Origin: Antiquaquibacter soli
GTDB lineage: Bacteria; Actinomycetota; Actinomycetes; Actinomycetales; Microbacteriaceae
Assembly (NCBI RefSeq): GCF_030580675.1
Contig: NZ_JAUQUB010000001.1
Location: 558,001-622,000, forward strand
DNA length: 64,000 nt
Reading direction: 5' to 3'
Position numbers and translations under genes: made by a program. The stretch's first letter is position 1. Every line of letters starts with the position of its first letter. The notes under the pieces are model-generated. The model made no database searches. It was not told the DNA's origin and saw only the letters and a program-made list of their open reading frames with translations. Below, piece after piece: positions 30,453-47,190 of the stretch.

Positions 30453-30468
30453 GCCATCATTTAAGCAG

Positions 30469-31973: not shown

Positions 31974-31988
31974 GACCCTATCCTACTG

Positions 31989-32012: not shown

Positions 32013-32020
32013 AGCGCAGG

Positions 32021-33283
32021 ATGGGGACCGTGACCCCCCTCGACCTCCCGCTTCGCCGCAACCGGAACTTCCTGTGGTTCTGGGGCGGCGAGGCGGTGAG
32101 CCAGCTCGGCGCCCAGTTCACCCTGCTCGCCATCCCCGTGCTCGCCGTGACCTTCCTCGGCGCGACCGAGTGGCAGGTGGGACTCCTCGGCGCAGCCCAG
32201 ACCGCGGCGTTCCTCCTCGTCGGACTCCCCGCCGGCGCGTGGCTCGACCGGATGCTCAAGCGCCGGGCCATGATCGCGGCCGACATCGTCCGCGCCGCCG
32301 CCTTGGCGACGCTGCCCGCGCTCTGGTTCGCGGGACATCTCGAGATGTGGCACCTCTACGTCGTCGGCATCGTCGTGGGCGTCGCTACCGTCTTCTTCGA
32401 CGTCGCCTACCAGAGCTACGTTCCGATCCTGCTGCCGTCGAGCCAGATCGGCTCCGGCAACTCCCGGCTGGAGACGACGTCGCAGATCGCCAGCATCGGC
32501 GGCCCCGGTCTTGCCGGGGCGCTCCTCACGATCGTGAGCGCGCCGGTGCTGCTCGTCGTCGACGCGATCTCCTACGTCGTCTCCGCCTTCGCCATCTGGA
32601 GAGTCCGGGACACCGAGACCACTCCGCCACGTCACGAGCGGCGACCGCTGGCGACCGAGATCGCCGAGGGCATCGCGTTCGTGTTCCGGCACCGACTTCT
32701 CCGTGCGATCGTCCTCACGACCGCGGCGACGAACTTCTTCGGCTTCTTCATCACGACCCTCGAGGCGCTCTATGTGCTCCGCGAGCTCGACCTCGGTCCG
32801 GCCTCGCTCGGCCTGATGTACTCCGTCGGCTCGGTCGGGGGACTGCTCGGTGCCGTCGCGACGCCGTGGTTCACGCGCCTCATCGGCGAGGGGACGGCGA
32901 TCACCGTGTCCGCGATCGGCTTCGGCATCGCCACCGCCGCCTACCCGCTCGCCTCCCTCGCCGGGGTTGCCGCGCTCCCCGTGCTGATCGGCGGGATGCT
33001 CCTGCAGTCGTTCTTCGTCCTGGTCTACAACATCACCCAGGTCACGATGCGCCAGCGGCTCTGCCCGCCCCGCCTGCTCGGCCGCATGAACGCCTCGATA
33101 CGCTTCGTCGTCTGGGGGGTCATGCCGCTCGGGAGCCTCGCCGGGGGCGCGCTCGGAACCGGGCTCGGAATCGTGCCGACGATGTGGATCGGCACTGTCG
33201 GCGGGCTTCTGGGGGCGGCCTTCGTGCTGTTCTCGCCGCTCACGGGGATGCGCGAGCTGCCTCGGGAGCAGGTGCGGGACTAA
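32021..33283 (+). CDS. MFS transporter (MFS_3/enterobactin-exporter type)
   Basis: The 420-residue protein has twelve hydrophobic segments. Its motif-A-like loop GLPAGAWLDRMLKRR lies near 66-80, between the second and third segments. The N-terminal LPLRRNRNFLWFWGGEAVSQLG and the helix LLPSSQIGSGNSRLETTSQ are typical of the MFS group with EntS-like or macrolide exporters. The substrate is unknown; a drug or metabolite exporter controlled by the divergent ArsR-type gene is the simplest reading. GTG at 32030 is an alternative start. The end shares CTAA (33280-33283) with the convergent PLP gene. Confidence 0.85.
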   Translation: MGTVTPLDLPLRRNRNFLWFWGGEAVSQLGAQFTLLAIPVLAVTFLGATEWQVGLLGAAQTAAFLLVGLPAGAWLDRMLKRRAMIAADIVRAAALATLPALWFAGHLEMWHLYVVGIVVGVATVFFDVAYQSYVPILLPSSQIGSGNSRLETTSQIASIGGPGLAGALLTIVSAPVLLVVDAISYVVSAFAIWRVRDTETTPPRHERRPLATEIAEGIAFVFRHRLLRAIVLTTAATNFFGFFITTLEALYVLRELDLGPASLGLMYSVGSVGGLLGAVATPWFTRLIGEGTAITVSAIGFGIATAAYPLASLAGVAALPVLIGGMLLQSFFVLVYNITQVTMRQRLCPPRLLGRMNASIRFVVWGVMPLGSLAGGALGTGLGIVPTMWIGTVGGLLGAAFVLFSPLTGMRELPREQVRD

Positions 33284-34428
33284 GCGGAGTCGGCGGAGCA
33301 GTCCGAGCAGCCCGACCGGTGCGCCGCAATCGACTCGAGTACCGCCCGCGCGACTTCCGGGGGCTCGTCGGGCGCAAGAAGCTGAGGGCTCAGAGCGATC
33401 CGGGCACCGGGCGCCGGGAGAACGGCCACGCGTGGGGATCGGTCCCAGAGCCGGCCGATGACGTCGTCGCGGCAGTCGCGCAATCCGCTCGGCACCCGCA
33501 CGAGCAGCCGCGGCACGAGCTGCCCGCAGTGCCCGGACGGATCCGCGTAGACGGCGAGGCGATGAGCGACGAATGCCGTCGACCATTCGTTGACGACGGC
33601 GAGCCTCTCGGCGTACTCGTCGTCTTCGTCCCGTTCGAGGAACTCCTCGACTGCGGCGAGAAGACCGAGGAGCTCTTCGCGGCCGATCTTCGCCGTACGT
33701 CCGACCCCGTGTTCGGTGCCGCTGTTGGTTCGGCATGCGGCGACCAGCTCTGCGGTGCCGACGACGAGCCCGCTGCTGGTGGGGCCGCCGATGCCCTTGC
33801 CCCCGCTGAAGACGGCGAGCGACGCTCCCAGCACGCGCGTGTAGTCGGTGAGTCGCGAGCGCGGCGGTACTTGATCGGCAGCGTCGACGACGACCGGGAT
33901 GCCCAGCTGCCGTGCCGCGTCGGCGAACAGGCGAAGCATCCCGTCCTCGTCCTCATGGGGGAACATCCCCGGGAACCAGACAAATGCCGCGTCGGCGCGG
34001 TCGAGTTCGCGGGGGTGCTCGACGACGCGCACGGCGCCGCCGCCCGCGGCGATGCTGTTGAGGTAGTCGTTGGGGTGCCAGGCGTCGGCCCCCGCGAGCT
34101 GGCCGCCGAGATGGCCGGACCAGACCGCGACGTCGGGTCGCTCGCTGCTGCGGGGGAGAGCTGCGGCCCGCTCTGGATCCGGTCCGGCGATCGTTGCGGC
34201 GACGGCGACCATGACTCCGGCGGCGCTGCCCGCGCTCACCCACGCTGACTCGTTGCCCGTCGCCTCGGCGAGGCGACGACCGACTTCGTCGTGGAGCGCC
34301 TCGATGTCGACGTATTCGGTCGACGCCCGGGCCATCGCCTCGAGAACCCTCCGGGAGAGCGTCGAGCCGCCGAGCCGCGATTGCGCAGCCCCCGCGTTGA
34401 TCACGCGGGGGAGGCCTAGGAGGCTCAC
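33280..34428 (-). CDS. SelA-fold PLP-dependent enzyme
   Basis: The 382-residue protein is related to the SelA / D-glucosaminate-6-phosphate ammonia-lyase branch of PLP enzymes. It shows RVINAGAAQSRLGGSTLS at the N-terminus, VDIEALHDEVGRRLAEATG, VVVDAADQVPP with the cofactor-binding Asp, and FSGGKGIGGPTSSGL, where the Lys is the expected PLP site. True SelA function is unlikely since no selB, selD or Sec tRNA is seen. A lyase or aldolase acting on an amino sugar acid or beta-hydroxy amino acid is the family-based guess. The GTG at 34428 overlaps the CGNR stop as GTGA. Confidence 0.75.
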   Translation of the reverse strand: MSLLGLPRVINAGAAQSRLGGSTLSRRVLEAMARASTEYVDIEALHDEVGRRLAEATGNESAWVSAGSAAGVMVAVAATIAGPDPERAAALPRSSERPDVAVWSGHLGGQLAGADAWHPNDYLNSIAAGGGAVRVVEHPRELDRADAAFVWFPGMFPHEDEDGMLRLFADAARQLGIPVVVDAADQVPPRSRLTDYTRVLGASLAVFSGGKGIGGPTSSGLVVGTAELVAACRTNSGTEHGVGRTAKIGREELLGLLAAVEEFLERDEDDEYAERLAVVNEWSTAFVAHRLAVYADPSGHCGQLVPRLLVRVPSGLRDCRDDVIGRLWDRSPRVAVLPAPGARIALSPQLLAPDEPPEVARAVLESIAAHRSGCSDCSADSA

Positions 34429-34991
34429 TGACCCGCCGTCACCCTCTGCCGCTCGCGATAGGCGGCGGCGTTGACGCGGTTGCCGCATCGGCCGCTGTCG
34501 CAGAACGTGCGCGAGCGGTTCTTCGAGTAGTCGACCATCACGCGGGAGCAGTCCGGAGCACGGCAGACGCGAAGCCGGTCGCCCTCGCCCGAGGTCAGCA
34601 TCACTGCGAGGGCCATCGCGCAGTCGGCCACGAGATGCTCCTCGAGAGTCGCGAACGGCGGGAAGTAGTGCAGGTGCAGGCCGAGACCGTCGTGATCGGA
34701 CAGCCGCGGCGTGATGCGCGCCGACGCCAGGAGTCGGTTGACGATGTCGGTGCGGGCCGACTCGTCGGGAGCAACGAAGACCGCCCGCAATTGGGAGCGA
34801 ACCAGGTGGATCGGCTCGAGGTCGCGCGCCGTCGGCTCCTCGACCTCCGTGATCACGCGGTCGAGCACGAAGCGGCGCAAGGCTTCCGCCGTCCCGAGCT
34901 CCTCGGAGTCCGCCGCGGGGGTGCCGGTGTTGATGAGCGCGGTGATGGTGCCGAGAACGTGCTCGAGATCGCGCCAGTCGTGACCGTTCAT
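34425..34991 (-). CDS. CGNR zinc-finger (ABATE domain) transcriptional regulator
   Basis: The 188-residue protein has an N-terminal ABATE-type helical domain and a C-terminal zinc finger with Cys143, Cys148, Cys164 and Cys169, the last in the signature CGNR (169-172), followed by VNAAAYRERQR. Such proteins are presumed stress- or ligand-responsive regulators. It is divergent from the substrate-binding lipoprotein gene and cotranscribed with the SelA-fold enzyme, so it is the probable local regulator of the catabolic operon. The ATG at 34991 has a leader of about 35 bases behind a good minus-strand promoter. Confidence 0.85.
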   Translation of the reverse strand: MNGHDWRDLEHVLGTITALINTGTPAADSEELGTAEALRRFVLDRVITEVEEPTARDLEPIHLVRSQLRAVFVAPDESARTDIVNRLLASARITPRLSDHDGLGLHLHYFPPFATLEEHLVADCAMALAVMLTSGEGDRLRVCRAPDCSRVMVDYSKNRSRTFCDSGRCGNRVNAAAYRERQRVTAGQ

Positions 34992-35231: not shown

Positions 35232-36539
35232 ATGAAAGCAACAGCCCTCCGCGTCGGGTTCGCCCTGACGCTTCCCGTAGCCCTGGTACTGGGCGGCTGT
35301 GCCGCCGGTGACGGCGGCTCCGAGGAGATCACGCTCACCGTTCAGACCGACTCCTACGCGCTGCCGGGCTTCCAGCTCGTGGCGGACCAGTTCGAGGCGG
35401 ACCACCCGGGCGTGACGGTCGAGTTCCAGGTGCTCACGCCGGATCAGCAGTCGACCACCAACCTGCAGACGCTCACCTCCGCCGACGCCCCCGACATCGC
35501 GAGCGCGCCCTTCAACACGACCGTCTTCACGGAGATGCTCGCGGCCGACCAGTTCGTGCCGCTCGACGACGTCTGGGAGGAAGCTGACCTCGAGGCGCGC
35601 TACGGCCAGTCGCTCGCTGACGCCATCCGCCCGGGTGGCCAGCAGGTCGGAGTCCTGTTCAGCAAAGTGCTCTATGGCATCGCCTGGTACAACAAGGCGA
35701 TGTTCGAGGAGGTCGGCATCGAAGTGCCCGAAGACCACCAGATCGGCACGATGGACAATCTCGCCGAAATGGTCGCAAAGCTCCGCGCCGGCGGCTACCA
35801 GCCTCTCTCCATCGGCGGCAGCTCCAACTACCACCTGACGTGGATCCTCGACAACCTCCTCGCGACCTCCGCGACGGCGGACGAGCTCACCAACTACGTG
35901 ACGAGCTTCGACCCGGACGTCGACGTGACGGCGTCCTACACCGACGCAGCCTTCACTGACGCCCTCGAGCGCATCAAGGAGATGTACGACTCCAACACCT
36001 TCCAGGACGGCGTTCTCGGCATGGACCAGGACGCGGGGCTCGCGCTCTTCGCCGCGGGGCAGGCCGGGATGATGATGGGGCACAACCAGACACCGGCCGG
36101 TGTCGCCAACAAGGAGTCCGATGTCGACATGGGCTTCCTCTTCCTGCCCCCGATCAACACGGATGTCACGCTCCCGAACTTCTACGCGGGCAACCTGCTC
36201 GAGATCCCGAAGAACGCCCAGCACCCGGACCTCGCCAAGGAATTCCTCGTGCTGCTCATGTCCGACGAGATGCAGATCGCGGCGATCGAAGCCACGGGCG
36301 GCGCGTTCCCTGGTGTCGCGGTCGACGAGAGCGCGATCGCCACGGCGCCGGACTCGGTGCGCGAGCTGCTGGAGTTCGAGTCCGAGTACGGCAACGTCGC
36401 GGGGTGGGCATCCCTTGTCCCCGCCAAGCTCGGCACGACCGACCCTCTCATCCAGAAGCTCCTGCTCGGCGAGACGACCGCCGAGGAGATCGGCGTCGAG
36501 CTCGACGCGCTGCTCGAGGAGATCCGCACCGATGGCTAG
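35232..36539 (+). CDS. ABC sugar-type substrate-binding lipoprotein
   Basis: The 435-residue protein has a lipoprotein signal peptide with the lipobox VLGGC, giving Cys23 as the lipidated residue. A family 1 solute-binding fold follows: ITLTVQTDSYALPGFQLVAD, FEADHPGVTVEFQVLTP and GKxx-like GGYQPLSIGGSSN. It would be anchored outside the membrane and hand a sugar or sugar-like compound to the two permeases coded next. The start has GACGAGGAT as ribosome site. It is the first gene of the long plus-strand operon. The ligand cannot be deduced. Confidence 0.9.
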   Translation: MKATALRVGFALTLPVALVLGGCAAGDGGSEEITLTVQTDSYALPGFQLVADQFEADHPGVTVEFQVLTPDQQSTTNLQTLTSADAPDIASAPFNTTVFTEMLAADQFVPLDDVWEEADLEARYGQSLADAIRPGGQQVGVLFSKVLYGIAWYNKAMFEEVGIEVPEDHQIGTMDNLAEMVAKLRAGGYQPLSIGGSSNYHLTWILDNLLATSATADELTNYVTSFDPDVDVTASYTDAAFTDALERIKEMYDSNTFQDGVLGMDQDAGLALFAAGQAGMMMGHNQTPAGVANKESDVDMGFLFLPPINTDVTLPNFYAGNLLEIPKNAQHPDLAKEFLVLLMSDEMQIAAIEATGGAFPGVAVDESAIATAPDSVRELLEFESEYGNVAGWASLVPAKLGTTDPLIQKLLLGETTAEEIGVELDALLEEIRTDG

Positions 36540-36572
36540 GTTCAGCTCAGGCCCCGCGGCGAACGGTCGGGC

Positions 36573-37481
36573 ATGACCGCAGTGTCGCGAACGGTGTCCG
36601 GGGGCGCGGGGATGCAGGTGCGGGTTCGCCTGGTCCTGCTCGCTGCGCTCCCGGCGCTGCTCCTCCTCCTCGTGGTGTTCGCCTACCCGATCGTGCAGAC
36701 CGTCCAGCTCTCCCTCTCGGAGTGGCGGGGCTTCGGGCCGATGGAGTGGACCGGACTCGACAACTACGCCGACGTCCTGTCGAGCGACGCCTTCTGGGAC
36801 GCCCTGCGCAACACCGTGGTGTTCGCGCTCGGTGCGACGATCTGCATTGTCGCCGCCGCGCTCCTGCTCGCGGTGGCGGCGACCCGGGGTCAGCGCTTCG
36901 ACCCGGCGTTCCGGGCGATCTGGTTCCTCCCCGCGATCGTGCCCGGCACGGCCGCGGCGGTCTTCTGGTCGATCTCGGTGCAGCCCCAGTCGGGGGTGGT
37001 CAATGCGGTGCTCGGCTTCCTGGGTCTCGGCAACGGTCACGCCTGGCTCGCGTCCCCTGAGACGGCTCTGTGGGTGATCGTGGGTGTCGCGGCGTGGACG
37101 AGCACGGCCTTCCCCTTCCTCCTCCTCGCGGGCGCGATCGACCGCGTCCCCGCGGAGGTCTACGAGGCCGCGCGAATCGATGGTGCCGGCGACGCCCAGC
37201 AGTTCTGGTACTTCACGATCCCGCTCATCCGCCCCGTGCTGACCATGGTGGTGGCCCTCCAGTTGATCTGGAACTTCAATGCCTTCACCCTCGTCTGGGC
37301 GATGACGAAGGGCGGCCCGGCGGGATCGACCACGATCCTGCCTGTGCTCCTCTACCAGGAGGGGTTCAAGAACGGCGACTTCGGCACGGCTGCGGCGATG
37401 GGTGTCATCTCAAGCGCTCTGCTGATCGCGCTCGGCGCTGTGACGCTTCGCGGGTCTGCCTCCCGGGCGGCCGGAGAATGA
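36573..37481 (+). CDS. ABC sugar transporter permease (MalF/UgpA type)
   Basis: The 302-residue protein has six membrane segments, the first near 22-42. It has the cytoplasmic EAA loop VYEAARIDGAGDAQQFWYFT (about 199-218) that docks on the ATPase. TMD topology and QLSLSEWRGFGP after the first helix match carbohydrate uptake transporter-1 permeases. It starts 33 bases after the binding-protein stop; an in-frame ATG at codon 14 is an alternative. It forms the heterodimeric channel with the next gene's product. Confidence 0.9.
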   Translation: MTAVSRTVSGGAGMQVRVRLVLLAALPALLLLLVVFAYPIVQTVQLSLSEWRGFGPMEWTGLDNYADVLSSDAFWDALRNTVVFALGATICIVAAALLLAVAATRGQRFDPAFRAIWFLPAIVPGTAAAVFWSISVQPQSGVVNAVLGFLGLGNGHAWLASPETALWVIVGVAAWTSTAFPFLLLAGAIDRVPAEVYEAARIDGAGDAQQFWYFTIPLIRPVLTMVVALQLIWNFNAFTLVWAMTKGGPAGSTTILPVLLYQEGFKNGDFGTAAAMGVISSALLIALGAVTLRGSASRAAGE

Positions 37482-38317
37482 GCGCCGCGCGCGTGTCGAA
37501 CGGTGCCTGGACGGCGCTCAAGCTCGGCATCACGGCGCTCGTGATCCTGCCGTTCGTCTTCATCCTCCTGCTCTCGTTCCGTTCGATGGCGGACATCTAC
37601 CGCAACCCGCTCGGGTTCACCGGCAACTGGGTCCCCGGGAACTTCGTCCGGGCCTGGAACGGCCCGCCCGGAGGTACCGGATTCTCGAACTACTTCGTCA
37701 ACTCGGTGCTCGTCGTGCTCGTGGCGGTCGTGATCGCCGCGCTGTTCGGCGCGCTTGCCGCCTACTTCGTGTCGCTGCTGCCGGCCCGGTGGCGCTCCCG
37801 GGTGCTCATGATCCCGCTCATCGCAACGATCGTCCCGACCATCGCGCTGCTCATCCCCTTCTTCCAAATGTTCAGTGCGTGGGGGCTGATGAACAGTCCC
37901 GTCGCAGTCGGGGTCCTGTACGCCGGGCTGTGCCTGCCGATGACCGTGCTCATCCTGCACGCATTCTTCGTCGACTTCCCCGGTGAGTTGCGCGAGGCCG
38001 CCGCCCTCGACGGACTCGGTCACGTGCGCACGTTCTTCACGATCGTCGTGCCGCTCTCGAAGCCGTCACTGCTCGCGGTCTCCCTGCTCAACCTGATCTG
38101 GGTCTGGGGAGAGACGCAGGTGGCCATCGTGCTGCTGCAGAAGGCCACGAGTCAGACGATCCCCGTCGGTGTTCTCACATTCCAATCGAGTTTCATGAGC
38201 GACCTCGGTCCGATCTTCGCCGGACTGAGCCTCGCGACCGTGCCGGTGCTCATCGTCTACTTCGTCTTCAACAAGACGATCAGTCGAGGGGTCTCGATGG
38301 GAGGCACGTTCCGATGA
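37478..38317 (+). CDS. ABC sugar transporter permease (MalG/UgpE type)
   Basis: The 279-residue protein has six membrane segments and the EAA loop LREAAALDGLGHVRTFFTI near 190-208, with VPLSKPSL after it, as in MalG-type permeases. The ATG at 37478 overlaps the previous stop as ATGA. No ATP-binding subunit is coded in the operon or elsewhere in the window. In actinobacteria a shared MsmK-type ATPase commonly energises several such importers, so that is the likely partner here. Confidence 0.9.
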   Translation: MSAARVSNGAWTALKLGITALVILPFVFILLLSFRSMADIYRNPLGFTGNWVPGNFVRAWNGPPGGTGFSNYFVNSVLVVLVAVVIAALFGALAAYFVSLLPARWRSRVLMIPLIATIVPTIALLIPFFQMFSAWGLMNSPVAVGVLYAGLCLPMTVLILHAFFVDFPGELREAAALDGLGHVRTFFTIVVPLSKPSLLAVSLLNLIWVWGETQVAIVLLQKATSQTIPVGVLTFQSSFMSDLGPIFAGLSLATVPVLIVYFVFNKTISRGVSMGGTFR

Positions 38318-39087
38318 CCCTGCGCCGATTCGACGAGCTCACGCGCGAGGCGCTCCGCGAGCGGACCGGAGATCTCGTGGTGGTGCCGCTCGGGGCGACT
38401 GAGCAGCACGGCGAGCACCTGCCGGTCATGACGGATGCGGCCATCATCACCCACCTCGCCGAGCGAGCGGGCGAGATCGCGGGAGAGCGAATCGACGTGC
38501 TGATCGCCCCTACCGTCAGGGTGGGGATATCGGGGCACCATGTCCCGTTCGGCGGCACGTTGACGGTCGGCTCGGAGACGTTCATCCGGGTACTGGTGGA
38601 CCTCGTGTCTGCCCTGCGCACCCAGGGATTCTCGCGCTCGCTCTTCGTCAACGGTCACGGCGGCAACGACGCGGCCATGCGGGTCGCGGTCGAGCGACTC
38701 GCCGTCACGGCGACGGGCGGCGAGTCGACGGCAGCGCTCTCCTACTGGGCGTTCGCGGGCGACGCAGTCGGGCACCGTTTTCCTACCCCGGGGCACGCGG
38801 GGGGCTTCGAAACGAGCGCGATGCTCGCTCTCCGACCCGAGCTCGTCGGAGCCGTTCCCACAGGCCCGCTCGTGCAGTTCGACCTCGCGACGGACGTCGT
38901 GACCGGCCTGCACGATGTGCGACCGGAAGCCTGGCGATCGAGCGCGGGCGTGACCGACAACGCCGCGGGAGCCGACGCCAAGGCCGGCGCCGCCGACCTC
39001 GAACAGATCGCGTCGCGAATCGCCGACGCCATGGTGGAGCAGGTCGCGCGGCTCGATGCCGCGCGCAGAACAGGAGAGAGTCGATGA
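38314..39087 (+). CDS. Creatininase family amidohydrolase
   Basis: The 257-residue enzyme carries the metal-binding motifs of the creatininase/ArfB family: LGATEQHGEHLPVMTD (27-42; Glu30, His32 and Asp41 region), NGHGGN, and HAGGFETSAML. Members hydrolyse cyclic or linear amides, such as creatinine or a formamidopyrimidine, or cleave the MftA peptide; the genuine substrate here is unknown. It overlaps the permease stop as ATGA. Its place straight after the importer suggests it opens an amide bond in the imported compound or its first product. Confidence 0.85.
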   Translation: MTLRRFDELTREALRERTGDLVVVPLGATEQHGEHLPVMTDAAIITHLAERAGEIAGERIDVLIAPTVRVGISGHHVPFGGTLTVGSETFIRVLVDLVSALRTQGFSRSLFVNGHGGNDAAMRVAVERLAVTATGGESTAALSYWAFAGDAVGHRFPTPGHAGGFETSAMLALRPELVGAVPTGPLVQFDLATDVVTGLHDVRPEAWRSSAGVTDNAAGADAKAGAADLEQIASRIADAMVEQVARLDAARRTGESR

Positions 39088-40391
39088 CGACACCACTGAC
39101 GATCGCCTCGGTGGAGCGCATCCGGGTGCACGTTCCTTTCACGGAGCGCAGTCGCCCGTGGAACAACGTGCTCGTAGGCGGATGGGGCCACATCGAGCTG
39201 TGCAAGGTGACGACGAGCTCTGGCGTGGTGGGCTGGGGCGAGACCCTGCTCACGTACACGTGGAAGCTCGTCGACGATGCGGCGGTCGCACGAGTGACCG
39301 GCAAGCCCCTCTTCGACCACCTCTGGGACGACTCGCTCGGTGCCGGATTGCAGCTAGCCCTGCTGGACGCCGCGGGCAAAGCCCTCGGCGTGCCTGCGCA
39401 CCGGCTGCTCGGTCTGCCCCAGGTTCGGCAGTCCATGCCGCTCGCTTGGTGGAGTACGAAGATGCCTCCGGAGGTACTCGCCGAGGAGGCGGCGGAGGCG
39501 GCGAGCCGCGGATACCGCGCCCACAAGTTCAAGGCGAGGCCGTGGTTCGACGTCGACGACCAGGTCGCGCAGGCGTCCGCCGCGACGCCCGATGACTACT
39601 CGTTCGGCATCGACTGGAATTCTCTGCTCCTGAGCTCGGCGGGCGCCCGCCCGGTGCTCGAACGGCTCGACGGCAACTCTCGCGTGCACTTCTTCGAGGG
39701 CGCCGTGGGCCGCGCTCAGATCGCCGACCAGAAGGACCTCCGCGGACGCTTCACGACGCCTCTCGTGGAACACTACGACGCCGCGCTGTTCCCGACCTGG
39801 ATGACCGAGAACGCCCTCGACGGTTTCGTCGTCGACACCGGTGGCATTTCGCGCTTCCTCCATATGGGCGCGACGTGCGCGGCCTTCAACAAGGAGTTCT
39901 GGCTCCAGATCGTCGGGACCGGCATCACCACGGCATTCGCCCTGCAGCTGAGCGCGGTGCTGACGCACGCCCGGTGGCCCTCGGTGACGGCTCTCAACGT
40001 TTTCGAGTCCACCCTCGTCACCGAGTCGATGGAACCCACTCTGGGCCTCCTGGCGATCCCGACCGCTCCAGGCCTCGGCGTCACCATCGACGAGGAAGCG
40101 GTGGAGCGGTACCGGGTCGGTGACGACTACCGCGTGGAACTGCCCCGCACGATACTCGTGTTCCGGCGGCCGGACGGCGCATCCCGGGACTACGCCTCCA
40201 TCAACCACCTCTGGCAGGAGTGCCTCGACGACGGGACGATGGGCGTGCAGTCGCCTGGCGCGCGCCTGGACATCGTCGAGGACGACGGCGGCTCAGAGTT
40301 CGCGGAGCGGTTCGCCGAGGCGGGCGCTCGGTTCAGCGGAACCGGAGTGCCCTGGCCGGCTCTCACGTTCTACCCGGGGCTCGACACGTGA
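39084..40391 (+). CDS. Enolase-superfamily (mandelate racemase-like) enzyme
   Basis: The 435-residue protein has the enolase-superfamily capping domain (1-110) and barrel. HKFKAR gives the K-x-K pair (Lys148, Lys150), and the three metal ligands are filled by Asp177 (GIDWNS), Glu205 (FFEGAV) and Asp251 (VVDTGG). Such enzymes take a proton next to a carboxylate and then dehydrate or racemise sugar acids. No clear second base (His-Asp dyad or Lys) on the later strands was identified. A sugar-acid dehydratase is the most frequent function near such transporters, but this is inference. The start overlaps the creatininase-family gene as ATGA. Confidence 0.85.
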   Translation: MTTPLTIASVERIRVHVPFTERSRPWNNVLVGGWGHIELCKVTTSSGVVGWGETLLTYTWKLVDDAAVARVTGKPLFDHLWDDSLGAGLQLALLDAAGKALGVPAHRLLGLPQVRQSMPLAWWSTKMPPEVLAEEAAEAASRGYRAHKFKARPWFDVDDQVAQASAATPDDYSFGIDWNSLLLSSAGARPVLERLDGNSRVHFFEGAVGRAQIADQKDLRGRFTTPLVEHYDAALFPTWMTENALDGFVVDTGGISRFLHMGATCAAFNKEFWLQIVGTGITTAFALQLSAVLTHARWPSVTALNVFESTLVTESMEPTLGLLAIPTAPGLGVTIDEEAVERYRVGDDYRVELPRTILVFRRPDGASRDYASINHLWQECLDDGTMGVQSPGARLDIVEDDGGSEFAERFAEAGARFSGTGVPWPALTFYPGLDT

Positions 40392-41179
40392 CCGATCGGC
40401 TCTTCGACACGCACTGCCACCTGTTCGAGCGGGGGTTCTCCGGTTCGACCGGTGTGCTGTTGCGGGGGCGCCACGCCGAGCTCCACGCCTACGAGCGCTA
40501 CCGCTCGGAGTTCGCCATCGAGCGTAGCCTCGTCATCGGTTTCGAGGGGGAGGCGGGCTACCTCGGATCTAACGCCTACCTCGAGAGCCTCTCCGTCGGG
40601 CGGCCCTGGCTCATCCCCGTGCCCTTCGTCGCGGTGGGCTCCCCGCTGCGCGGCCGCGCCGCCTGCGCCTACGTCTCGACCGCGGACGACGGCCAGTGGC
40701 TCGCGGCGGAGCTCGGTCGGCGGGACGCCCCCTCCCTCCTCTCCCTCAATGCCAGACCGGAGGCGCTCGCCGCAGCCGCACCCGCCCTCCGCGCCGCCGG
40801 GGGGACGTGGATCCTCGTCTCCCACCTCGGACTGCCCGGCCCGGCACCCTCTCTCCTGGCGGCGATCGAGCGGCTCGAGCCGCTCCTCTCGCTCGCCGCC
40901 GCCGACCACGTGACCGTCAAGCTCTCGGGCCAGTACGCCGCGAGCTCGCTCGGCTACCCGCATCCCGACGTTCAGCCGATCGTCGATCTCGTCGCCGATC
41001 GCTTCGGCGGACTCCGGCTCACGTGGGGTTCCGACTTCTCGCCGTGCCTTGAGCACGTCGCCTTCGCCGAAGCCGTCGATTGCGTCCTGCCGTCGGGGGC
41101 GAGCCCCACCGAGCGGGACGCCATCCTCTTCAGCACCGCCGACCGCCTGTACCACCACTATCTCGGAGTGCCAGCATGA
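40388..41179 (+). CDS. Amidohydrolase_2-type TIM-barrel hydrolase
   Basis: The 263-residue protein starts with FDTHCHLF (His9-x-His11, a metal-site signature). It has a VTVKLSGQYA strand and a TWGSDFSP with the Asp expected at the end of the barrel, as in amidohydrolase family 2 (lactonases such as 2-pyrone-4,6-dicarboxylate hydrolase and fuconolactonase relatives). Hydrolysis of a lactone or cyclic amide of a sugar acid is plausible. The GTG at 40388 overlaps the previous stop as GTGA and leads straight into the conserved motif. Confidence 0.8.
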   Translation: MTDRLFDTHCHLFERGFSGSTGVLLRGRHAELHAYERYRSEFAIERSLVIGFEGEAGYLGSNAYLESLSVGRPWLIPVPFVAVGSPLRGRAACAYVSTADDGQWLAAELGRRDAPSLLSLNARPEALAAAAPALRAAGGTWILVSHLGLPGPAPSLLAAIERLEPLLSLAAADHVTVKLSGQYAASSLGYPHPDVQPIVDLVADRFGGLRLTWGSDFSPCLEHVAFAEAVDCVLPSGASPTERDAILFSTADRLYHHYLGVPA

Positions 41180-42303
41180 CGTCGCCGACCGCCTTGGGCC
41201 CGTTCTACCGCGATCACCTCGTCGGCGTCGACGACGTGGTGCACCTCTACTCCGGAGCCGAGGGGCCGGCCCTGCGCGCGCATCGCGAAGCGGCGGCTCG
41301 CTACGTCGTCGACAAGTCCGCGGGCGAGGAGGGCCGCCGTCGCAGTGAAGCAGTGCTCGACACGACGAGGGAGCAGCTCGCGAGGCTGATGGGCGGGTCG
41401 GCCAACTCGATCGCCATCCTCGGCAACGCATCGGATGCCATCAACCGACTCGTCGGCGCCGTCCGGCTCGAGCCTGGCGACAACGTCGTGACGAGCGACC
41501 TCGAGTTCCCCTCCGGCGTCCAGTCGCTCCTATTGCTGCGCGACCGAGGAGTGGAGGTGCGCTTCGCGCGCGGCCGCGAAGGACACCTCTCGGCGGCCGA
41601 CTTCGAGCCGATGATCGACGAGCGCACCCGGCTCGTGGTCTCGAGCCACACAAGCTACGTCAGCGGGGCGCGGATCGACCCCGCGACCGTTCATGCTCTC
41701 GCTCGGCGCGTCGGTGCCGCCTTCATCCTCGATGTCACTCAGTCGCTCGGGGTTCTGCCGGTGGTCGCAGCCACGGCGGACGCGATCGTCTCGAGCTCCT
41801 ACAAGTGGGTCCTGGGGCCCCACGGCCTCGGGATCGTGCACCTCACCAATCCGGCCGCGTTCGGTCATGCCGCCGCAGGCTGGCGATCCGTGCCCGACGT
41901 CTTCGCGCCCGATCGCCTCAGCACGGTTCGGTTTCGCCCGGATGCCCGCAGCCTCGAGCTCGGATTCCCGAGCTTCCTCGGCGCCTACTTCCTCACCGAG
42001 TCCCTCGCCCTCATCCTCGATGCCGACCAGTCCGCCGTCGAAGCCCACGTGAACTCGCTCACCGCGCAGCTCGTGGACGGGCTGCTCGGCGCCGGCGCCC
42101 GCCTGCTCTCGCCCCTCGACCCCGCGGAGCGCGGCACGAACATCAGCGTCGTCGCGGCAGATGGCGAGTCCGTCGCGGCGCGGATGCTCGAATCGGGCGT
42201 GCGCGTCTGGGGCGGCGACGGCCGCGTTCGTTTCTCGGTGCACGCGTTCAACACCGCCAACGACATCGACGCGGCGCTCGCTGCATACCGGGCGGCAGCA
42301 TGA
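41176..42303 (+). CDS. Class V aminotransferase-fold PLP enzyme
   Basis: The 375-residue protein has the aminotransferase class-V fold of cysteine desulfurases, kynureninases and isopenicillin-N epimerases. It shows VLEFPSGVQ-type active-site strand (SDLEFPSGV), FILDVTQSLGVLP with the PLP-binding Asp, and SSYKWVLGPHGLG with the Schiff-base Lys. No desulfurase Cys loop is evident, so an epimerase, lyase or hydrolase acting on an amino compound is more likely than sulfur transfer. It overlaps the upstream gene as ATGA. Confidence 0.8.
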   Translation: MTSPTALGPFYRDHLVGVDDVVHLYSGAEGPALRAHREAAARYVVDKSAGEEGRRRSEAVLDTTREQLARLMGGSANSIAILGNASDAINRLVGAVRLEPGDNVVTSDLEFPSGVQSLLLLRDRGVEVRFARGREGHLSAADFEPMIDERTRLVVSSHTSYVSGARIDPATVHALARRVGAAFILDVTQSLGVLPVVAATADAIVSSSYKWVLGPHGLGIVHLTNPAAFGHAAAGWRSVPDVFAPDRLSTVRFRPDARSLELGFPSFLGAYFLTESLALILDADQSAVEAHVNSLTAQLVDGLLGAGARLLSPLDPAERGTNISVVAADGESVAARMLESGVRVWGGDGRVRFSVHAFNTANDIDAALAAYRAAA

Positions 42304-43451
42304 CTCTGCCGCCCGTGCGCCGAGCGGATGCGGATTCCGCCCGCGAGCTGCTCACCGCCCTCGTCAGCATCCCCTCGGTCAATCCGGCCTACGATCCCGC
42401 GTCCCCGGGCGAGAACGCTCTCGGCGACGCCATCCTCGAGTGGACGGCCGGGCTGGGGCTCGAAGGCTCCCGCGAGCCGGTCGTCGACGGCCGCCGGAAC
42501 ATCCGCGCGCGACTCGCAGCGTCGCGATCCGAGCGCACCCTGCTCATCGAGGGCCACCTCGACACCGTCGGCCTCTCACCCGGATCCGGAACGCAGGCGC
42601 GAGTCGAACGCGGACGGCTGCACGGCCGAGGCGCGTGCGACACCAAGGGCGGCATCGCCGCCGCCCTCCTCGCCATCGCCGAGCTCGCCGAGCGTGGGCT
42701 CGAGCGGACGGACGTGGTGCTGCTCGGCGCGATCGACGAGGAGCTCGCCTTCCGGGGGATCACGGCGGCGATCGCGGGAGGTGAGCGAGGCGACGCCGCG
42801 ATCGTTCTCGAGCCCACCGACCTCGCGATCGTGACCGAGCACAACGGGGTGCTCCGTTCGGAGATCCTGGTCACCGGGCGCGCGGCCCACACGTCACGTC
42901 CCGAGGAGGGGCGCAACGCGATCGTCGACGCCCTCGAGGTGGTCCGCGCCCTGGAGGAATGGATCGCCCGGGACACCCTCGAAGGCGACGACACCGGTCG
43001 CATCCTCGCGGTGACGACGATCGCGGGCGGGTCGGCGATCAACATCGTGCCGGACTCCTGCCGGCTCGGCGTCGATCTTCGCATTCGGCCCGCCGAGCAT
43101 CCCGAGGGCGTCCTCGACGAGCTCCACGGGCTTCTCGCGTCGCTGCCCGTGGACGCCCGCGTCGATCGCGTGCTGCTCGCGGACGGCGGACTGAGCACGG
43201 CCCCGACGAGTCGCGTCGTCCTGGCCGCCCAGCGCGCGGCCGGCCTCCATCAGCTGCCGGTGGAGGCCGTCCGCGTACCCTACGGAACCGACGGCAGCAA
43301 GCTCGCCCGGGCCGGGATACCGACCGTCGTCTTCGGACCGGGCTCGATCGCCGACGCCCACGGCGACGAGGAGTCGGTCGCGCTCGACGACGTGGTCACC
43401 GCGGCGCGCGTCATCCGCGACCTGGTGCTCGCCCTCGAGGAGTTCGCGTGA
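42300..43451 (+). CDS. M20 family metallopeptidase/deacylase
   Basis: The 383-residue enzyme carries all M20 metal and catalytic residues. These are His86 and Asp88 in IEGHLDTVG, Asp114 in GACDTKGG, the general base Glu147 with ligand Glu148 in IDEELAF, Glu171 in VLEPTD, and the last His in ADAHGDEE. The dimerisation lid lies between about 185 and 290. M20 enzymes remove N-acyl, N-succinyl or N-carbamoyl groups or split small peptides. In this operon it may deacylate the nitrogen-bearing intermediate. It is coupled to the neighbour on each side by four-base overlaps. Confidence 0.9.
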   Translation: MTLPPVRRADADSARELLTALVSIPSVNPAYDPASPGENALGDAILEWTAGLGLEGSREPVVDGRRNIRARLAASRSERTLLIEGHLDTVGLSPGSGTQARVERGRLHGRGACDTKGGIAAALLAIAELAERGLERTDVVLLGAIDEELAFRGITAAIAGGERGDAAIVLEPTDLAIVTEHNGVLRSEILVTGRAAHTSRPEEGRNAIVDALEVVRALEEWIARDTLEGDDTGRILAVTTIAGGSAINIVPDSCRLGVDLRIRPAEHPEGVLDELHGLLASLPVDARVDRVLLADGGLSTAPTSRVVLAAQRAAGLHQLPVEAVRVPYGTDGSKLARAGIPTVVFGPGSIADAHGDEESVALDDVVTAARVIRDLVLALEEFA

Positions 43452-44341
43452 GTGTGCGGGTTGGAGTGATCGGTGCCGGCGCCTTCGGGCGCGAGCACGC
43501 ACTCGCGTACTCGCAGCTTCCCACTGCCCGGCTCGTGTCGATCGTGGACGCCGATCCTGCGCGGGCCGACTCCCTCGCCGCCGAGCTCGGGGTCGATCGG
43601 GGAGGGGCGCTCGGTCACCCCGACGCCGTCTCGGTCGTCGTGCCGGCCGCATCGCGGGGCACGCTCGTCGCCGACAGCATCGCGGCGGGCCGTGCGGTGC
43701 TCATCGAGAAGCCGCTCGCCGCGACCGTGGAGGAGGCGCGAGAGATCGTTCGACTGGGCGGCGGGCTACCGGTCATGGTCGGTCACCTGCTCCGATTCGC
43801 GGAGCCGTACGTGCGGCTCGAGCAGCGGGCGCGCGCGTTCGGGCGTCTCTCGGGCGGAACCCTCGGTCGGCTCCGGTCCGCCGCACACGCTGCGCGTCAT
43901 CCCGCAGACGACGTCGTGGGGCTCACCATGATCCATGACCTGGACGCCGTCGCGTGGCTTGCCGGCTCGAGCATCGCGACAGTGCGGGCCACGGGGAGGG
44001 CGGACGACGAGCGCTGGATCGCGAGCGACGCCGAACTGACGATGGCCGATGGCTCCCGGTGGTTCGTGCACGCGGCGTGGGAAGGCAGCGACGCCGATCA
44101 GCGGGATGACGCAAGCATCGTCGCCGCCGACGGCCGCGAGTCGAGCCTGTCCCTCGGCTCCGCCGACGCGGCGGTCTACGACAGTGCGCTCGAGGCCGAG
44201 CTCGCGCACTTCGTCGAGTGCGCCGCGCTGGGCGCACCCTCCGACCGCCTCGTGCTCGCGGACGCGGCCCGCGCGGTGGCAGCGGCCGACGCGGTCCGCA
44301 CCTCGATGGAGCAGAAGGGAGCGCCGGTCGATGTCTGGTAA
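43448..44341 (+). CDS. Gfo/Idh/MocA family oxidoreductase
   Basis: The 297-residue protein has the NAD(P)-binding VGVIGAGAFGREHA at the N-terminus, the conserved EKPLA with the active-site Lys, and HDLDAVAWL in the C-domain where His serves catalysis. It is short for the family. Members oxidise or reduce sugars, inositols and related polyols; this one presumably acts on a carbohydrate-like intermediate. The GTG at 43448 overlaps the M20 stop as GTGA. The downstream gene starts 11 bases before its stop. Confidence 0.85.
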   Translation: MSVRVGVIGAGAFGREHALAYSQLPTARLVSIVDADPARADSLAAELGVDRGGALGHPDAVSVVVPAASRGTLVADSIAAGRAVLIEKPLAATVEEAREIVRLGGGLPVMVGHLLRFAEPYVRLEQRARAFGRLSGGTLGRLRSAAHAARHPADDVVGLTMIHDLDAVAWLAGSSIATVRATGRADDERWIASDAELTMADGSRWFVHAAWEGSDADQRDDASIVAADGRESSLSLGSADAAVYDSALEAELAHFVECAALGAPSDRLVLADAARAVAAADAVRTSMEQKGAPVDVW

Positions 44342-45767
44342 CGCCGATCTGCTGGTGCGGCACGCCCACCTGATCACCATGGACGACGAACGCAGCATCA
44401 TCCCGGATGCTGCGATCGCAATCGTCGACGGGGCGATCGTCGACCTCGGCCCGGACGCCGATGTCGTCGCGCGCTGGGGTGCCACGGAGGTCATCGACGC
44501 GGCGGGGGCTCCCGTCCACCCCGGTCTGGTCGAGGCGCACTTGCATTGCTCGTACCAGTTGTTCCGCGGCGCCCTGCCTGACCAGCTCCAGGAGGAGGAC
44601 GCCTTTCGCGAGTTCGAGGGTCACTTCTACCGCGCGGTCGACGACGAGGACGAGCACGCCTCTGCGGTGATTGCGGCCCTCGAGATGATCCGCCACGGCA
44701 CGACTGCCTTCCTGGAGCCCGGCACGGTCCTGGAGGTCGAGGCCGCCGCCACCGCTGCCGAGCTAGTGGGCATCCGTGCGGTGCTCGCCGACTCGTTCAT
44801 CTGGGACGACCCGGAGGGCCTCGCGATGGGCAAGAACGCCCACCCCGAGCGCAACACATCGATGATCCCGCGGGCGGCGAGCGATCGCGCGTCGGTTCGC
44901 TCCCGCCTCGGCCGCATGGCCGTGCGCCAGTCGCCACCCGGGTCCCTCGTCACGGGGCACGTCGCCGTGCTCGGACTCGGCACGGCGTCAACCGAACTCA
45001 TGATCGAGGCCAAAAGGGTCGCGGACGACGCGGGTGTTGTACTCAACTTCCACCAGTCGTACAGCCCGGGGGACACCGCACGCGACCACCAGCGACTCGG
45101 TGCCCACCCGATCGTCGCGCTGCGCGACCTCGGCGTGGTGGATCGATCGACCACGATGGCGCACGTCAACCACGTGTCCGACGCGGAGTTCCACGCGCTC
45201 GTGGAGTCGGGTGCGACCGTCGCGTGGGCGCCGGCCGCGTCGATGATGTGGGGGCACGGCTCGACGCTCGACGGCCGACATGCAGAACTGCACAGGGCGG
45301 GCGCGTCAGTCGCTCTCGGCTCCGACTCGCCGAACTGGTCGAACAGCCTCGACCTCTTCCGCCAGGCATCCCTCGCAGTGCTGACGGCTCGCGAGTCGCA
45401 CCGCGATCGCACCTACCTCGTCGCCGAGGACGGGTTCGCGATGGCGACTCGCGGTGGGGCTCGGGCCGCGGGGATCTCCGATCGGGCGGGCTCAATCGAG
45501 ATCGGCAAACGAGCCGACCTCGTCGTCCACTCACTGCGCCGGCCAGAGCTCCTGCCGCTGACGGACCCGGTACGGAACCTCGTCTACTCGGCGGGCTCGA
45601 GCACGGTCGACACGGTCGTCATCGAGGGCCGCGTCGTGCTGCGCGGTGGAATGTTCCCGCACCTCGATGAGGAGGCTCTCCTGCGGCGGGCGAGCGAGCG
45701 CTCCGTGGGACTGCTGCGGCGCATGGGCTACACAGTGGGGCCCAACGACCTGGGGCGGAGGGTATGA
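44331..45767 (+). CDS. Amidohydrolase/deaminase of the ATZ-TRZ (cytosine deaminase-like) group
   Basis: The 478-residue enzyme shows the metal site of the amidohydrolase superfamily: His70-x-His72 in VEAHLHCS, a third His in NFHQSY, HVNHVSD, and the barrel-end Asp in ALGSDSPNWSN. A composite beta-domain built from both ends holds LLVRHAHLITMDD and GKRADLVVHSL. This subgroup deaminates or dechlorinates nitrogen rings (guanine, methylthioadenosine, triazines, imidazolones). A nitrogen heterocycle or amidine in the operon's substrate is suggested by it. Start overlaps the previous gene by 11 bases. Confidence 0.85.
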   Translation: MSGNADLLVRHAHLITMDDERSIIPDAAIAIVDGAIVDLGPDADVVARWGATEVIDAAGAPVHPGLVEAHLHCSYQLFRGALPDQLQEEDAFREFEGHFYRAVDDEDEHASAVIAALEMIRHGTTAFLEPGTVLEVEAAATAAELVGIRAVLADSFIWDDPEGLAMGKNAHPERNTSMIPRAASDRASVRSRLGRMAVRQSPPGSLVTGHVAVLGLGTASTELMIEAKRVADDAGVVLNFHQSYSPGDTARDHQRLGAHPIVALRDLGVVDRSTTMAHVNHVSDAEFHALVESGATVAWAPAASMMWGHGSTLDGRHAELHRAGASVALGSDSPNWSNSLDLFRQASLAVLTARESHRDRTYLVAEDGFAMATRGGARAAGISDRAGSIEIGKRADLVVHSLRRPELLPLTDPVRNLVYSAGSSTVDTVVIEGRVVLRGGMFPHLDEEALLRRASERSVGLLRRMGYTVGPNDLGRRV

Positions 45768-46798
45768 GCACCGTCATCCCGCTCGTTCCCGCCCAGTTCC
45801 CGGAGAGCGGACGGCGCACCCTGCTCGAGGCCGACGGGATCGTGGTCGAAGGCTTCCGCTACAGCTCCGGTATCGAGGGGATGACGGTCCGCAGCGAGGC
45901 CCTCGAGCTCGACGTCCTCCCGTTCACCGGACAGCAGATCTGGCGCGCTCGCATCGGGGGGCGCGATCTCACGATGCGGTCGACGTTCGAGGAGCCCGTC
46001 GCGTCGCGCGAGTACCTCGAGAGCAACGGGGCCTACTTCATCCATTGCGGCGGGAGTGCGATGGGCAACCCCGGCCGCGGGGACGAGCACCCGCTGCACG
46101 GCGAGCTGCCGAGCGCGCGGCTGGGCGATGTCGCGCTCGAGCTCGAGGGCCACGAGCTGCGGCTCCGCGGCGGGTTCACCTCGCGGGTCGCGTTCGGTGC
46201 CTACTTCCGTGCCGCGTTGTCGCTCCGTGTTCGGGTGGGTGACACGCTCATCGAGTCCCACGCCGAGCTCACGAACCTCAGTGCTGAGCCCCGCCCGCTC
46301 ATGTACCTCGCCCACATCAACATGCTGCCGGCGGTCGGTGGCCGTCTCGTCGAGGAGTACGAGCCCGGCCGGAGGCCGGTAGCGCGCGGCGACGTGCTCG
46401 TCGGCGGGCGACCGGTGCCGGCAGCCGACCTCGACTCCGGCGCCGTCGATATCGAGGAGCTGCTCGCGCCCGGTGTGCGGGTCGAGCCCGAGCTCGTGCA
46501 GACAGTCCCGGTCGCGCATCCCGGCGGGTGGTCGACCGTTCGACAGGTGCATCCCACCGGGCACACCGACATCGTCTCCTTCGAGCACGGCGACCTCACC
46601 CACACGATCCGATGGCTGCGGCGCTCGGCCGACGACGACGCCTTCGGGTTCGCGCTGCCCGCCACCGCCGAAGCCGACGGTCTGGCGGCGGAGACCGCCA
46701 AAGGCCACGTTCGACTGTACGGACCCGGCGAGAGCCTTCGCGCAACCATCCGGCACGGCAGTGAGCCGGCCACCCCCAGAGAAAGGTCCCCCGAATGA
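45764..46798 (+). CDS. DUF4432 family protein (aldose-1-epimerase-like fold)
   Basis: The 344-residue protein matches DUF4432, a galactose-mutarotase-like beta-sandwich family. It shows LDVLPFTGQQIWRARIGGRD, GNPGRGDEHPLHGELP with the conserved His pair, and LAHINMLPA. DUF4432 proteins are often found in carbohydrate catabolic operons and are presumed to bind or epimerise sugars; the reaction is unproven. It suggests that the pathway handles a sugar or sugar derivative. ATGA overlaps couple it to the genes on both sides. Confidence 0.85.
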   Translation: MSTVIPLVPAQFPESGRRTLLEADGIVVEGFRYSSGIEGMTVRSEALELDVLPFTGQQIWRARIGGRDLTMRSTFEEPVASREYLESNGAYFIHCGGSAMGNPGRGDEHPLHGELPSARLGDVALELEGHELRLRGGFTSRVAFGAYFRAALSLRVRVGDTLIESHAELTNLSAEPRPLMYLAHINMLPAVGGRLVEEYEPGRRPVARGDVLVGGRPVPAADLDSGAVDIEELLAPGVRVEPELVQTVPVAHPGGWSTVRQVHPTGHTDIVSFEHGDLTHTIRWLRRSADDDAFGFALPATAEADGLAAETAKGHVRLYGPGESLRATIRHGSEPATPRERSPE

Positions 46799-47190
46799 AC
46801 ACCGAGATCCACACTCCGCTAGCGCCGACTCCGCTGTCGAGCTTCGCCCAGGGCGCGAGATCCGGACCCTTCCTGCAGGTCTCCGGCTGCGGCTCCCTCG
46901 ACCCGGGGACGGGTCAGGTGATCAACCTCGGCGACGTGGGCGCGCAAGTGACGGCGACGCTCGAGACCGTCCGCGCCATCCTCGCGGCGGGCGGGGCGAG
47001 CTTCGCCGACGTGCTCATGGTGCGCGTCTACCTGACCGACCGCGCCCATTTCCCGCTCATGAACGCCGCGTACGAGTCGTTCATCGCGGAGCACGCTCCG
47101 ACGGCGAAGCCAGCCCGCACGACGCTCATGGTCGGGCTGCCCCTCGAGGGCATGCTCGTCGAGATCGACGCCCTCGCCGTAGTCGCCTAG
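46795..47190 (+). CDS. RidA family (YjgF/YER057c/UK114) protein
   Basis: The 131-residue protein has the RidA core, with VRVYLTDRAHFPLMNAAY, the conserved Arg108 in PARTTLMV, and Glu123 in VEIDAL at the inter-subunit pocket. RidA proteins form trimers and hydrolyse reactive enamine/imine products of PLP enzymes. Its place as last gene of an operon containing a class-V PLP enzyme, and near a second PLP gene, suggests it processes their imine intermediate. The start overlaps DUF4432 as ATGA. Confidence 0.9.
   Translation: MNTEIHTPLAPTPLSSFAQGARSGPFLQVSGCGSLDPGTGQVINLGDVGAQVTATLETVRAILAAGGASFADVLMVRVYLTDRAHFPLMNAAYESFIAEHAPTAKPARTTLMVGLPLEGMLVEIDALAVVA

Follow-up and report, generated by a model that had tools for sequence, protein, structure and literature searches.

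In soil and water, amino sugars are a major reservoir of carbon and nitrogen, and the usual view is that bacteria phosphorylate these compounds before breaking them down. Oxidative, non-phosphorylating routes for aldoses (L-fucose, L-rhamnose, Weimberg/Dahms type) use a mutarotase, a C1 dehydrogenase, a COG3618-type lactonase and a loss of water that yields a 2-keto-3-deoxy acid, and the Thermotoga-type inositol route uses IolN, a creatininase-family hydrolase, with a MocA dehydrogenase. N-acetylglucosaminate (GlcNAc1A) is degraded by the Ong pathway of marine Pseudoalteromonas; in the excerpted account of that pathway, GlcNAc1A arrives already oxidised, TonB receptors and an SSS symporter take it up, its acetyl group is removed by OngB (annotated as a D-aminoacylase), OngC (annotated as a D-amino-acid deaminase) produces 2-keto-3-deoxygluconate (KDG), KdgK phosphorylates KDG, and OngD, a RidA protein of unknown role, is essential (PMC9537276). 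DgaE is described, likewise in excerpt, as converting glucosaminate-6-phosphate to KDG-6-phosphate, with His163 protonating the enamine before its release (PMC9529869), and a glucosaminate route in Natrarchaeobius is given in the excerpt concerning it as predicted and untested (PMC12343721). Here we analyzed a 64,000-nucleotide stretch of the Antiquaquibacter soli genome (the window, to which plain coordinates refer) carrying a 12-gene operon for an importer and enzymes at 35232-47190. We give about an even chance to the reading that this operon would serve to import an N-acyl 2-amino-2-deoxy sugar, probably as a component of a larger or decorated molecule, and to break it down by an oxidative route without phosphorylation. 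The kind of pathway is already known; the enzyme set and the proposed intracellular oxidation at C1 would be new.

The 12 genes all lie on the plus strand and are tightly packed, with overlaps at 10 of the 11 junctions (nine of 4 bp and one of 11 bp) and a sole gap of 33 bp between the gene for the solute-binding protein (SBP) and that for the first permease. Each product matched the Pfam model of its named family above the curated cut-off. The first-pass annotation had named the same 12 genes and families, and both were confirmed, apart from a doubt about one enzyme label considered further on. Its extent for the locus was right for these 12 genes but missed two divergent, co-conserved genes, encoding a CGNR zinc-finger protein and a DgaE-like enzyme, which overlap one another and are oriented away from the operon. 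The 14 genes are as follows (PLP, pyridoxal 5'-phosphate):

33280-34428, minus strand: divergent, co-conserved DgaE/SelA-like PLP enzyme (NCBIfam matches below cut-off; no Pfam family; PDB matches 8t7j and 7lc0)
34425-34991, minus strand: CGNR zinc-finger regulator (Pfam ABATE and zf-CGNR, 52 and 59 bits)
35232-36539, plus strand: solute-binding lipoprotein of CUT1 sugar type (SBP_bac_1, 94.9 bits)
36573-37481, plus strand: ABC permease 1 (BPD_transp_1, 57.4 bits)
37478-38317, plus strand: ABC permease 2 (BPD_transp_1, 54.2 bits)
38314-39087, plus strand: creatininase-family metallohydrolase (Pfam, 181 bits)
39084-40391, plus strand: divergent enolase-superfamily enzyme (MR_MLE_C, 84.9 bits)
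40388-41179, plus strand: Amidohydro_2 enzyme, AH2 (Pfam, 43.9 bits)
41176-42303, plus strand: class-V PLP enzyme, class V for short (Aminotran_5, 101 bits)
42300-43451, plus strand: M20 deacylase (Peptidase_M20, 94.5 bits; M20_dimer, 59.8 bits)
43448-44341, plus strand: Gfo/Idh/MocA oxidoreductase (Pfam, 69.6 bits)
44331-45767, plus strand: Amidohydro_1 enzyme, AH1, ATZ/TRZ-like (Amidohydro_1, 130 bits; Amidohydro_3, 61.8 bits)
45764-46798, plus strand: DUF4432 protein (Pfam, 60.9 bits)
46795-47190, plus strand: RidA-family enamine/imine hydrolase (Ribonuc_L-PSP, 84.4 bits)

In the scheme that we propose, the substrate would enter through the CUT1 importer, energised by an ATPase encoded elsewhere. 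The DUF4432 protein, as a sugar mutarotase, would interconvert its anomers; the MocA enzyme, as a sugar C1 dehydrogenase, would oxidise C1 to give a lactone; and AH2, as an N-acylamino-aldonolactonase, would open the lactone to a 2-acylamino-aldonate. The M20 enzyme, as an N-acylamino-aldonate deacylase, would then remove the acyl group, and class V, as a 2-amino-aldonate ammonia-lyase, would take water and ammonia from the resulting 2-amino-3-hydroxy acid to leave a 2-keto-3-deoxy acid, with RidA hydrolysing the enamine or imine. A KDG/KDGal-type kinase and a KDPG aldolase encoded elsewhere in the genome would finish the route, and the creatininase-family, enolase-superfamily, AH1 and DgaE-like enzymes would be an accessory set, used to prepare the substrate or to process its second half. 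A substrate of the 2-acylamino aldose type, which would be oxidised at C1 and opened before losing first its acyl group and then water and ammonia, fits with a natural fusion of AH2 and class V, the mutual exclusion of DUF4432 and the mutarotase RhaM, the relatives of AH2, the dehydratases of a variant cluster, the cysteine-free class V, and neighbouring genes of FAA, NagK, SIS and GH20 type.

As far as the excerpted account of the Ong pathway goes, it resembles the proposed route in deacylating an N-acetyl aminoaldonate, in deaminating the product to KDG with a PLP enzyme, and in having a RidA protein and, downstream, a KDG kinase. RidA is encoded within the cluster in both cases (46795-47190 here), whereas the KDG kinase gene belongs to the Ong cluster and the operon has none, a KDG/KDGal-kinase-like gene lying elsewhere in the genome. 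The M20 enzyme and class V would take the roles of OngB and OngC; the operon differs in its CUT1 importer and in the MocA, AH2 and DUF4432 proteins that would carry out the oxidation inside the cell. It also differs by annotation in that its deacylase is an M20 enzyme and not of the D-aminoacylase family, a difference between names, as the OngB and OngC sequences were not compared; the Amidohydro_1 and Amidohydro_3 scores of AH1 leave room for a distant kinship to D-aminoacylases, and D-serine-dehydratase-type proteins occur in three related loci (L093, L096 and L097). The D-glucosaminate-6-phosphate route (DgaE/DGL), to the extent excerpted, is alike in that a 2-amino-aldonate loses water and ammonia on a PLP enzyme and in that the window has a relative of DgaE; in contrast, the DGL substrate is a 6-phosphate, and the main enzyme proposed here is class V, the DgaE relative scoring well below cut-offs. 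Compared with the oxidative aldose routes, M20, class V and RidA would stand in for the dehydratase step, a change that an acylamino group at C2 would call for. The Thermotoga-type inositol route has both a creatininase-family and a MocA enzyme, as the operon does, but the match to IolN is weak (59.4 bits, cut-off 245). No description of the operon's gene set and no orthologous operon with an assigned substrate was found among the matches listed from text searches of the openly licensed PubMed Central (PMC) literature, where the Ong paper alone looked close, so the earlier suggestion of an undescribed route holds for the gene set in that literature, while its chemistry has a described relative in the Ong pathway.

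To characterize the distribution of the core genes, class V was searched in genomes of the genus (27), family (299), class (394) and phylum (396), and 13 loci from seven genera, the window included, were tabulated in stretches of 18-23 kb around the better matches. The MocA gene was found in all 13 loci, class V, AH2 and M20 in 12 each, and RidA and a mutarotase candidate (DUF4432 or RhaM) in 10 each; MocA proteins belong to a large superfamily, and the poorest match, 25% in L081, may carry little meaning. For the 10 loci besides the window that were assigned to the clade, the counts were nine for AH2, nine for M20, ten for MocA and eight for RidA. Twenty-three loci around class-V relatives of lower similarity, five of which are truncated to 8.9-14 kb by contig ends or by the limits of the region retrieved, served as a control. 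None of the four genes was found at E 1e-5 in 22 of them, and the 23rd, L096, carried all four together with RhaM and constitutes a further core cluster. When 48 class-V proteins, L089 and L096 not among them, were placed in a tree, those of ten core loci grouped with one Mesorhizobium protein (support 0.988). The recurrence of the gene set, with all 14 genes together in a metagenome-assembled genome (MAG) of Salinibacterium and, patchily, the six-gene core in other actinobacterial genera, supports the earlier view of one co-conserved catabolic unit.

Several loci were left off the table. L082 and L092 have class V at 34-35% and no M20; at the control cut-off L082 showed no AH2, M20, MocA or RidA, and L092 has a weak AH2, a RidA and an AH1 at 48%. 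L098, L101 and L102, retrieved by AH2 (E about 1e-21), have no class V or M20 among their called genes. In a plasmid collection, the relatives of class V (from the window and from L088), AH1, the creatininase and the enolase were all below 60% identity and the AH2 of L088 had no match; the best class-V plasmid, of Mesorhizobium NZP2077, and that of Mesorhizobium B2-1-8 found with AH1 were set aside, their gene sets being different.

The arrangement of individual loci links the core steps to one another. In L094 (9358-11352, minus strand), AH2 and class V are fused into one protein of 664 residues, so both very likely serve one pathway. DUF4432 (four loci) and RhaM (six loci) never occur together, and three of the 13 loci have neither. 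L099 contains AH2, class V, M20, MocA, DUF4432 and RidA with a divergent CGNR gene, and in its stretch no creatininase, enolase, DgaE-like gene or AH1 orthologue was found, only a 24% AH1 match outside the cluster. A second cluster in genome G902 (L097:5367-15689) encodes CGNR, a PALP-family dehydratase, M20, AH2, MocA, a D-serine-dehydratase-like protein and CUT1-type permeases; class V was not found in that stretch, and the PALP Ser/Thr dehydratase scored 326 bits against a cut-off of 331. The presence of both sugar-type and amino-acid-type enzymes in the operon would also suit a sugar-amino-acid conjugate (opine or Amadori type, or an O-glycosyl serine/threonine), whose sugar half would go to MocA and AH2 and whose amino-acid half to M20, class V and RidA, and a Mesorhizobium relative of class V has genes for sarcosine oxidase and for threonine/serine dehydratase as its neighbours. 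We consider this improbable, since the AH2-class V fusion and the exchange of mutarotases are simpler to understand if one molecule passes all core steps.

The likely roles of the sugar-type core enzymes were examined through their relatives. The nearest solved relatives of AH2 in a profile search of the PDB were 2ffi (E 8e-14), named as a pyrone-dicarboxylic acid hydrolase, and 4dlf (E 3e-12), which we take to be a fuconolactonase; against the NCBIfam fucono-lactonase model (cut-off 400), the window's AH2 reached 23.7 bits and the AH2 portion of the fused L094 protein 37.9 bits, both below. For DUF4432, a low-confidence structure model (pLDDT 48) gave as its top Foldseek match the putative aldose 1-epimerase 3ty1 (E 1.6e-7, TM 0.49), and from the same model ranks 2-15 were titled galactose mutarotases or epimerases (E 0.005-0.014); the sequence profile reached 3ty1 at E 0.22 only. 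DUF4432 is mentioned in two openly licensed PMC papers, whose titles point to other subjects. The best NCBIfam matches of the MocA enzyme were a UDP-GlcNAc 3-dehydrogenase model and inositol dehydrogenases, all below cut-off.

Given these matches, we weighed the catabolism of an aminocyclitol or inositol-type ring, in which MocA would oxidise ring hydroxyls and the creatininase-family enzyme would open a diketo ring as IolN does. Inositol dehydrogenases are among the PDB matches of MocA, which scores 84 bits against IolG (cut-off 355), and the creatininase scores 59 bits against IolN. The creatininase is nearer to the MftE and creatininase models, however, nine of the 13 loci have the core without it, and a mutarotase and a lactonase fit aldoses and not cyclitols, so that this route appears unlikely. 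An N-acyl amino aldose is also consistent with the neighbours of the core. FAA hydrolases act on compounds derived from 2-keto-3-deoxy acids, and a gene for one adjoins the core in L081 and L100; L100 also encodes a kinase resembling NagK (86 bits, cut-off 370) and a protein of SIS isomerase type (268 bits, cut-off 135). Proteins with a GH20b domain lie beside L091 and L099 (just above cut-off) and L090 (below cut-off), with no match in L088.

In class V, R352 and K210 are invariant in the 10 aligned proteins, and by our reading R352 aligns with what is presumably the carboxylate-binding arginine of SufS. The window protein has no cysteine anywhere, and the C-terminal columns 311-389 lack one in eight of the 10 (L033 and L082 have one each). 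We therefore rejected the name cysteine desulfurase for this protein, as the catalytic cysteine of the C-terminal loop is missing. In the M20 enzyme, H86, D114, E147, E148, E171 and H354 are invariant in six aligned proteins. A pairing of M20 and class V could also be explained by a cysteine-conjugate route, in which M20 would deacetylate a mercapturate or mycothiol-derived conjugate, class V would cleave the C-S bond and RidA would hydrolyse the aminoacrylate. Actinobacteria make mycothiol, class V scores 61 bits against the EgtE model (cut-off 400), and its solved relatives, among the best 60 of 83, are mostly cysteine desulfurases and include an L-cysteine/cystine C-S lyase. We regard this route as highly unlikely, since it offers no role for a mutarotase, AH2 or sugar importers and since L097 has hydroxy-amino-acid dehydratase families in the equivalent setting.

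Several observations weigh against the amino-sugar reading, beginning with those solved relatives of class V. No operon protein exceeded an NCBIfam cut-off among the matches listed (for M20 the best 25 of 51, for AH1 the best 25 of 39), so the family models assign no specific function, and the structure models of DUF4432 and the enolase are both poor (pLDDT 48 and 57). Few genomes carry the module: at E 1e-40, class V occurs in seven of 299 family and five of 394 class genomes, own genome included. The loci were retrieved by similarity to class V or AH2 (L033 by the enolase) and are not a blind sample; nor are they independent, since one genus contributes L088, L089 and L090, a second L093, L094 and L097, and a third the window, L080 and L081. 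Core genes are missing from some stretches (no AH2 in L093, no M20 in L081, no class V in L097), and RidA was not found in those of L093, L094 and L097. Both class V and a D-serine-dehydratase-like protein are present in L093 and L096, which weakens the argument that one replaces the other, and the GH20b matches cover the N-terminal and not the catalytic domain. The host carries a NagB-like gene (219.5 bits, cut-off 236.9), so that plain GlcNAc would not need the operon's route and is not an obvious substrate. Finally, the core scheme assigns no step to the creatininase, the enolase, AH1 or the DgaE-like enzyme. On balance we hold the finding to be real and well delimited and, with middling confidence, the core scheme to be right, as judged entirely from comparative genomics. 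The AH2 profile (E 1e-20) was found in three of 12 genomes of one other genus and in five of 248 of the order, own genome included.

The whole 14-gene set was examined with the enolase as query across 84,980 species, each represented by a single genome, in a scan that requires any of six 8-residue patterns to match exactly and so reaches close relatives only. Six genomes were returned. The Salinibacterium MAG, from the window's own genus, has all 14 genes in unchanged order and at the equivalent chromosomal place, the six flanking genes being 69-87% identical and the 14 genes 51-81%; it and the window's genome are the only two of the 27 in the genus with class V at 65% identity or more. Codon position 3 differs 1.6 to 2.7 times as often as position 1 between the two sets (11 genes; for AH1, 0.21, 0.12 and 0.51 at positions 1, 2 and 3), a pattern as expected of genes under protein-level constraint. 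Promoter- and terminator-like sites occurred in a consensus scan at about the rate of shuffled sequence. The remaining five enolase orthologues (44-53%), from three Nonomuraea, a Phytoactinopolyspora and a Propionibacteriaceae MAG, stand in gene sets that differ from the operon, with permease homologues nearby in four of the five (the exception being L037); the neighbours scanned, few in number, were a beta-helix protein, a DHDPS-type aldolase and a second MR_MLE protein in L034, a DUF4838 protein in L035 and a pyruvyl transferase in L036. The enolase by itself was set aside as a pathway marker, as its orthologues lie in other gene sets and suggest a "sugar acid" at most.

The accessory genes recur less often among the 13 loci, with counts of four for the creatininase, three for the DgaE-like gene and two each for the enolase and AH1 (plus the weak match in L099). 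CGNR was found in five. In eight loci (L081, L088, L089, L090, L091, L096, L097 and L100), none of the four accessory enzyme genes was found within the 18-23 kb read. The creatininase of the operon stayed below all NCBIfam cut-offs (MftE, 118.6 bits; creatininase, 94.3 bits, cut-off 235; the IolN model, NF041098, as given above); it is also present in L033, L093 and L094, with long invariant motifs across the four aligned, and our guess at its substrate is a cyclic amide or lactone. The enolase keeps KxK, D177, E205 and an E-H pair in seven orthologues, and in our reading of the alignments other residues occupy the positions where the beta6 Lys/Asp and the beta7 His usually stand; its structure model gave superfamily-level matches only and was not used.

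In AH1, the metal ligands H70, H72, H241 and D332 are present in all three aligned proteins. The Glu of the HxxE motif, the catalytic residue of ATZ/TRZ-type deaminases, is replaced by Tyr244 in all three, opposite the Glu of 4f0r, so that the label of ATZ/TRZ-type deaminase is sound in its metal site and doubtful in its activity. The first-pass annotation had proposed a carbohydrate-like substrate with an amide, amidine or N-heterocycle; the amide-bearing carbohydrate is supported and, as the best reading, narrowed to an N-acylated amino sugar, and the amidine or N-heterocycle finds no clear support, the deaminase label failing at the catalytic Glu. In L092 the AH1 gene overlaps those for MocA and class V and no M20 was found in the stretch, which suggests that AH1 may be a deacylase.

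The DgaE-like enzyme scored 124 bits against TIGR01437 and 122 bits against NF047797 (cut-offs 385 and 600), with orthologues in the Salinibacterium MAG (63%) and L094 (43%). The column of DgaE His163 is not conserved among three aligned (perhaps His in the window, not in L033 and L094), which could leave work for RidA, and the Arg226 column holds Thr in the window and Arg in L033 and L094. It was set aside as the main ammonia-lyase, being present in only three of the 13 core loci.

A single linear route of all 12 genes for an amidine- or N-heterocycle-bearing carbohydrate, with the creatininase and AH1 cutting ring C-N bonds, would suit two families that often act on nitrogen-containing rings and are co-conserved in the Salinibacterium MAG, but this earlier proposal has little probability left, since AH1 lacks the deaminase's catalytic Glu and all four accessory enzymes are missing from eight of the 13 core loci within the stretches read. 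These four enzymes could be the part that is most new. Within the amino-sugar reading, we consider it unlikely that the pathway has two parts, the core taking the free N-acyl amino sugar to a 2-keto-3-deoxy acid with no phosphorylation at any step and the accessory set treating an attached acidic or second amino sugar; if so, the imported molecule would be disaccharide-like, its catabolism would be undescribed, and functions would follow for DUF4432 and for these AH2, M20 and class-V clades.

If the proposed core pathway is correct, the operon would represent a rare module for oxidation of an unphosphorylated amino sugar in at least seven actinobacterial genera and would alter the annotation of such clusters. 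Testable functions would follow for DUF4432 and for three enzyme clades whose present names are just "amidohydrolase", "peptidase M20" and "cysteine desulfurase-like", and the frequent company of a RidA protein with such enzymes would be explained.

In the host genome, the KDPG aldolase gene eda (TIGR01182, 227 bits, cut-off 156) lies on another contig, where it overlaps the KDG/KDGal-kinase-like gene (203 bits, cut-off 440). No ABC ATPase gene was found inside the operon; two MalK-type ATPase candidates elsewhere in the genome could energise the importer, whose SBP has the chitin-oligosaccharide-binding NagB1 (7ehp, E 4e-15) as its nearest PDB structure. The CGNR protein, co-conserved in L033/L080, L094, L097 and L099, is the probable regulator of the operon.

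Further genes were observed around these loci. An ArsR and an MFS gene (31458-33283) lie in the window between the gene at 30382-31461 and the operon; at the Salinibacterium MAG locus no match to the ArsR gene was found and the MFS gene is on the far side of the operon. A Mesorhizobium plasmid relative of the class-V group (L078:478-13056) is accompanied by sarcosine oxidase, threonine/serine dehydratase and purU genes. Clusters of the RhaM type adjoin conserved proteins of 514-560 residues (L088:17095-18639, L090:17172-18854 and L091:16732-18411); the GH20b matches given above for L091 and L090 lie at the N terminus of these proteins. A second creatininase-family gene in the host genome (L001, G000:C1:75092-75853) is 29% identical to that of the operon. 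The creatininase gene of L093 and L094 is adjoined by a gene for a protein of 387-396 residues without a Pfam match (L093:11397-12560, minus strand; L094:12376-13566, plus strand); the two proteins are 49% identical, and in L094 this gene overlaps that of the creatininase.

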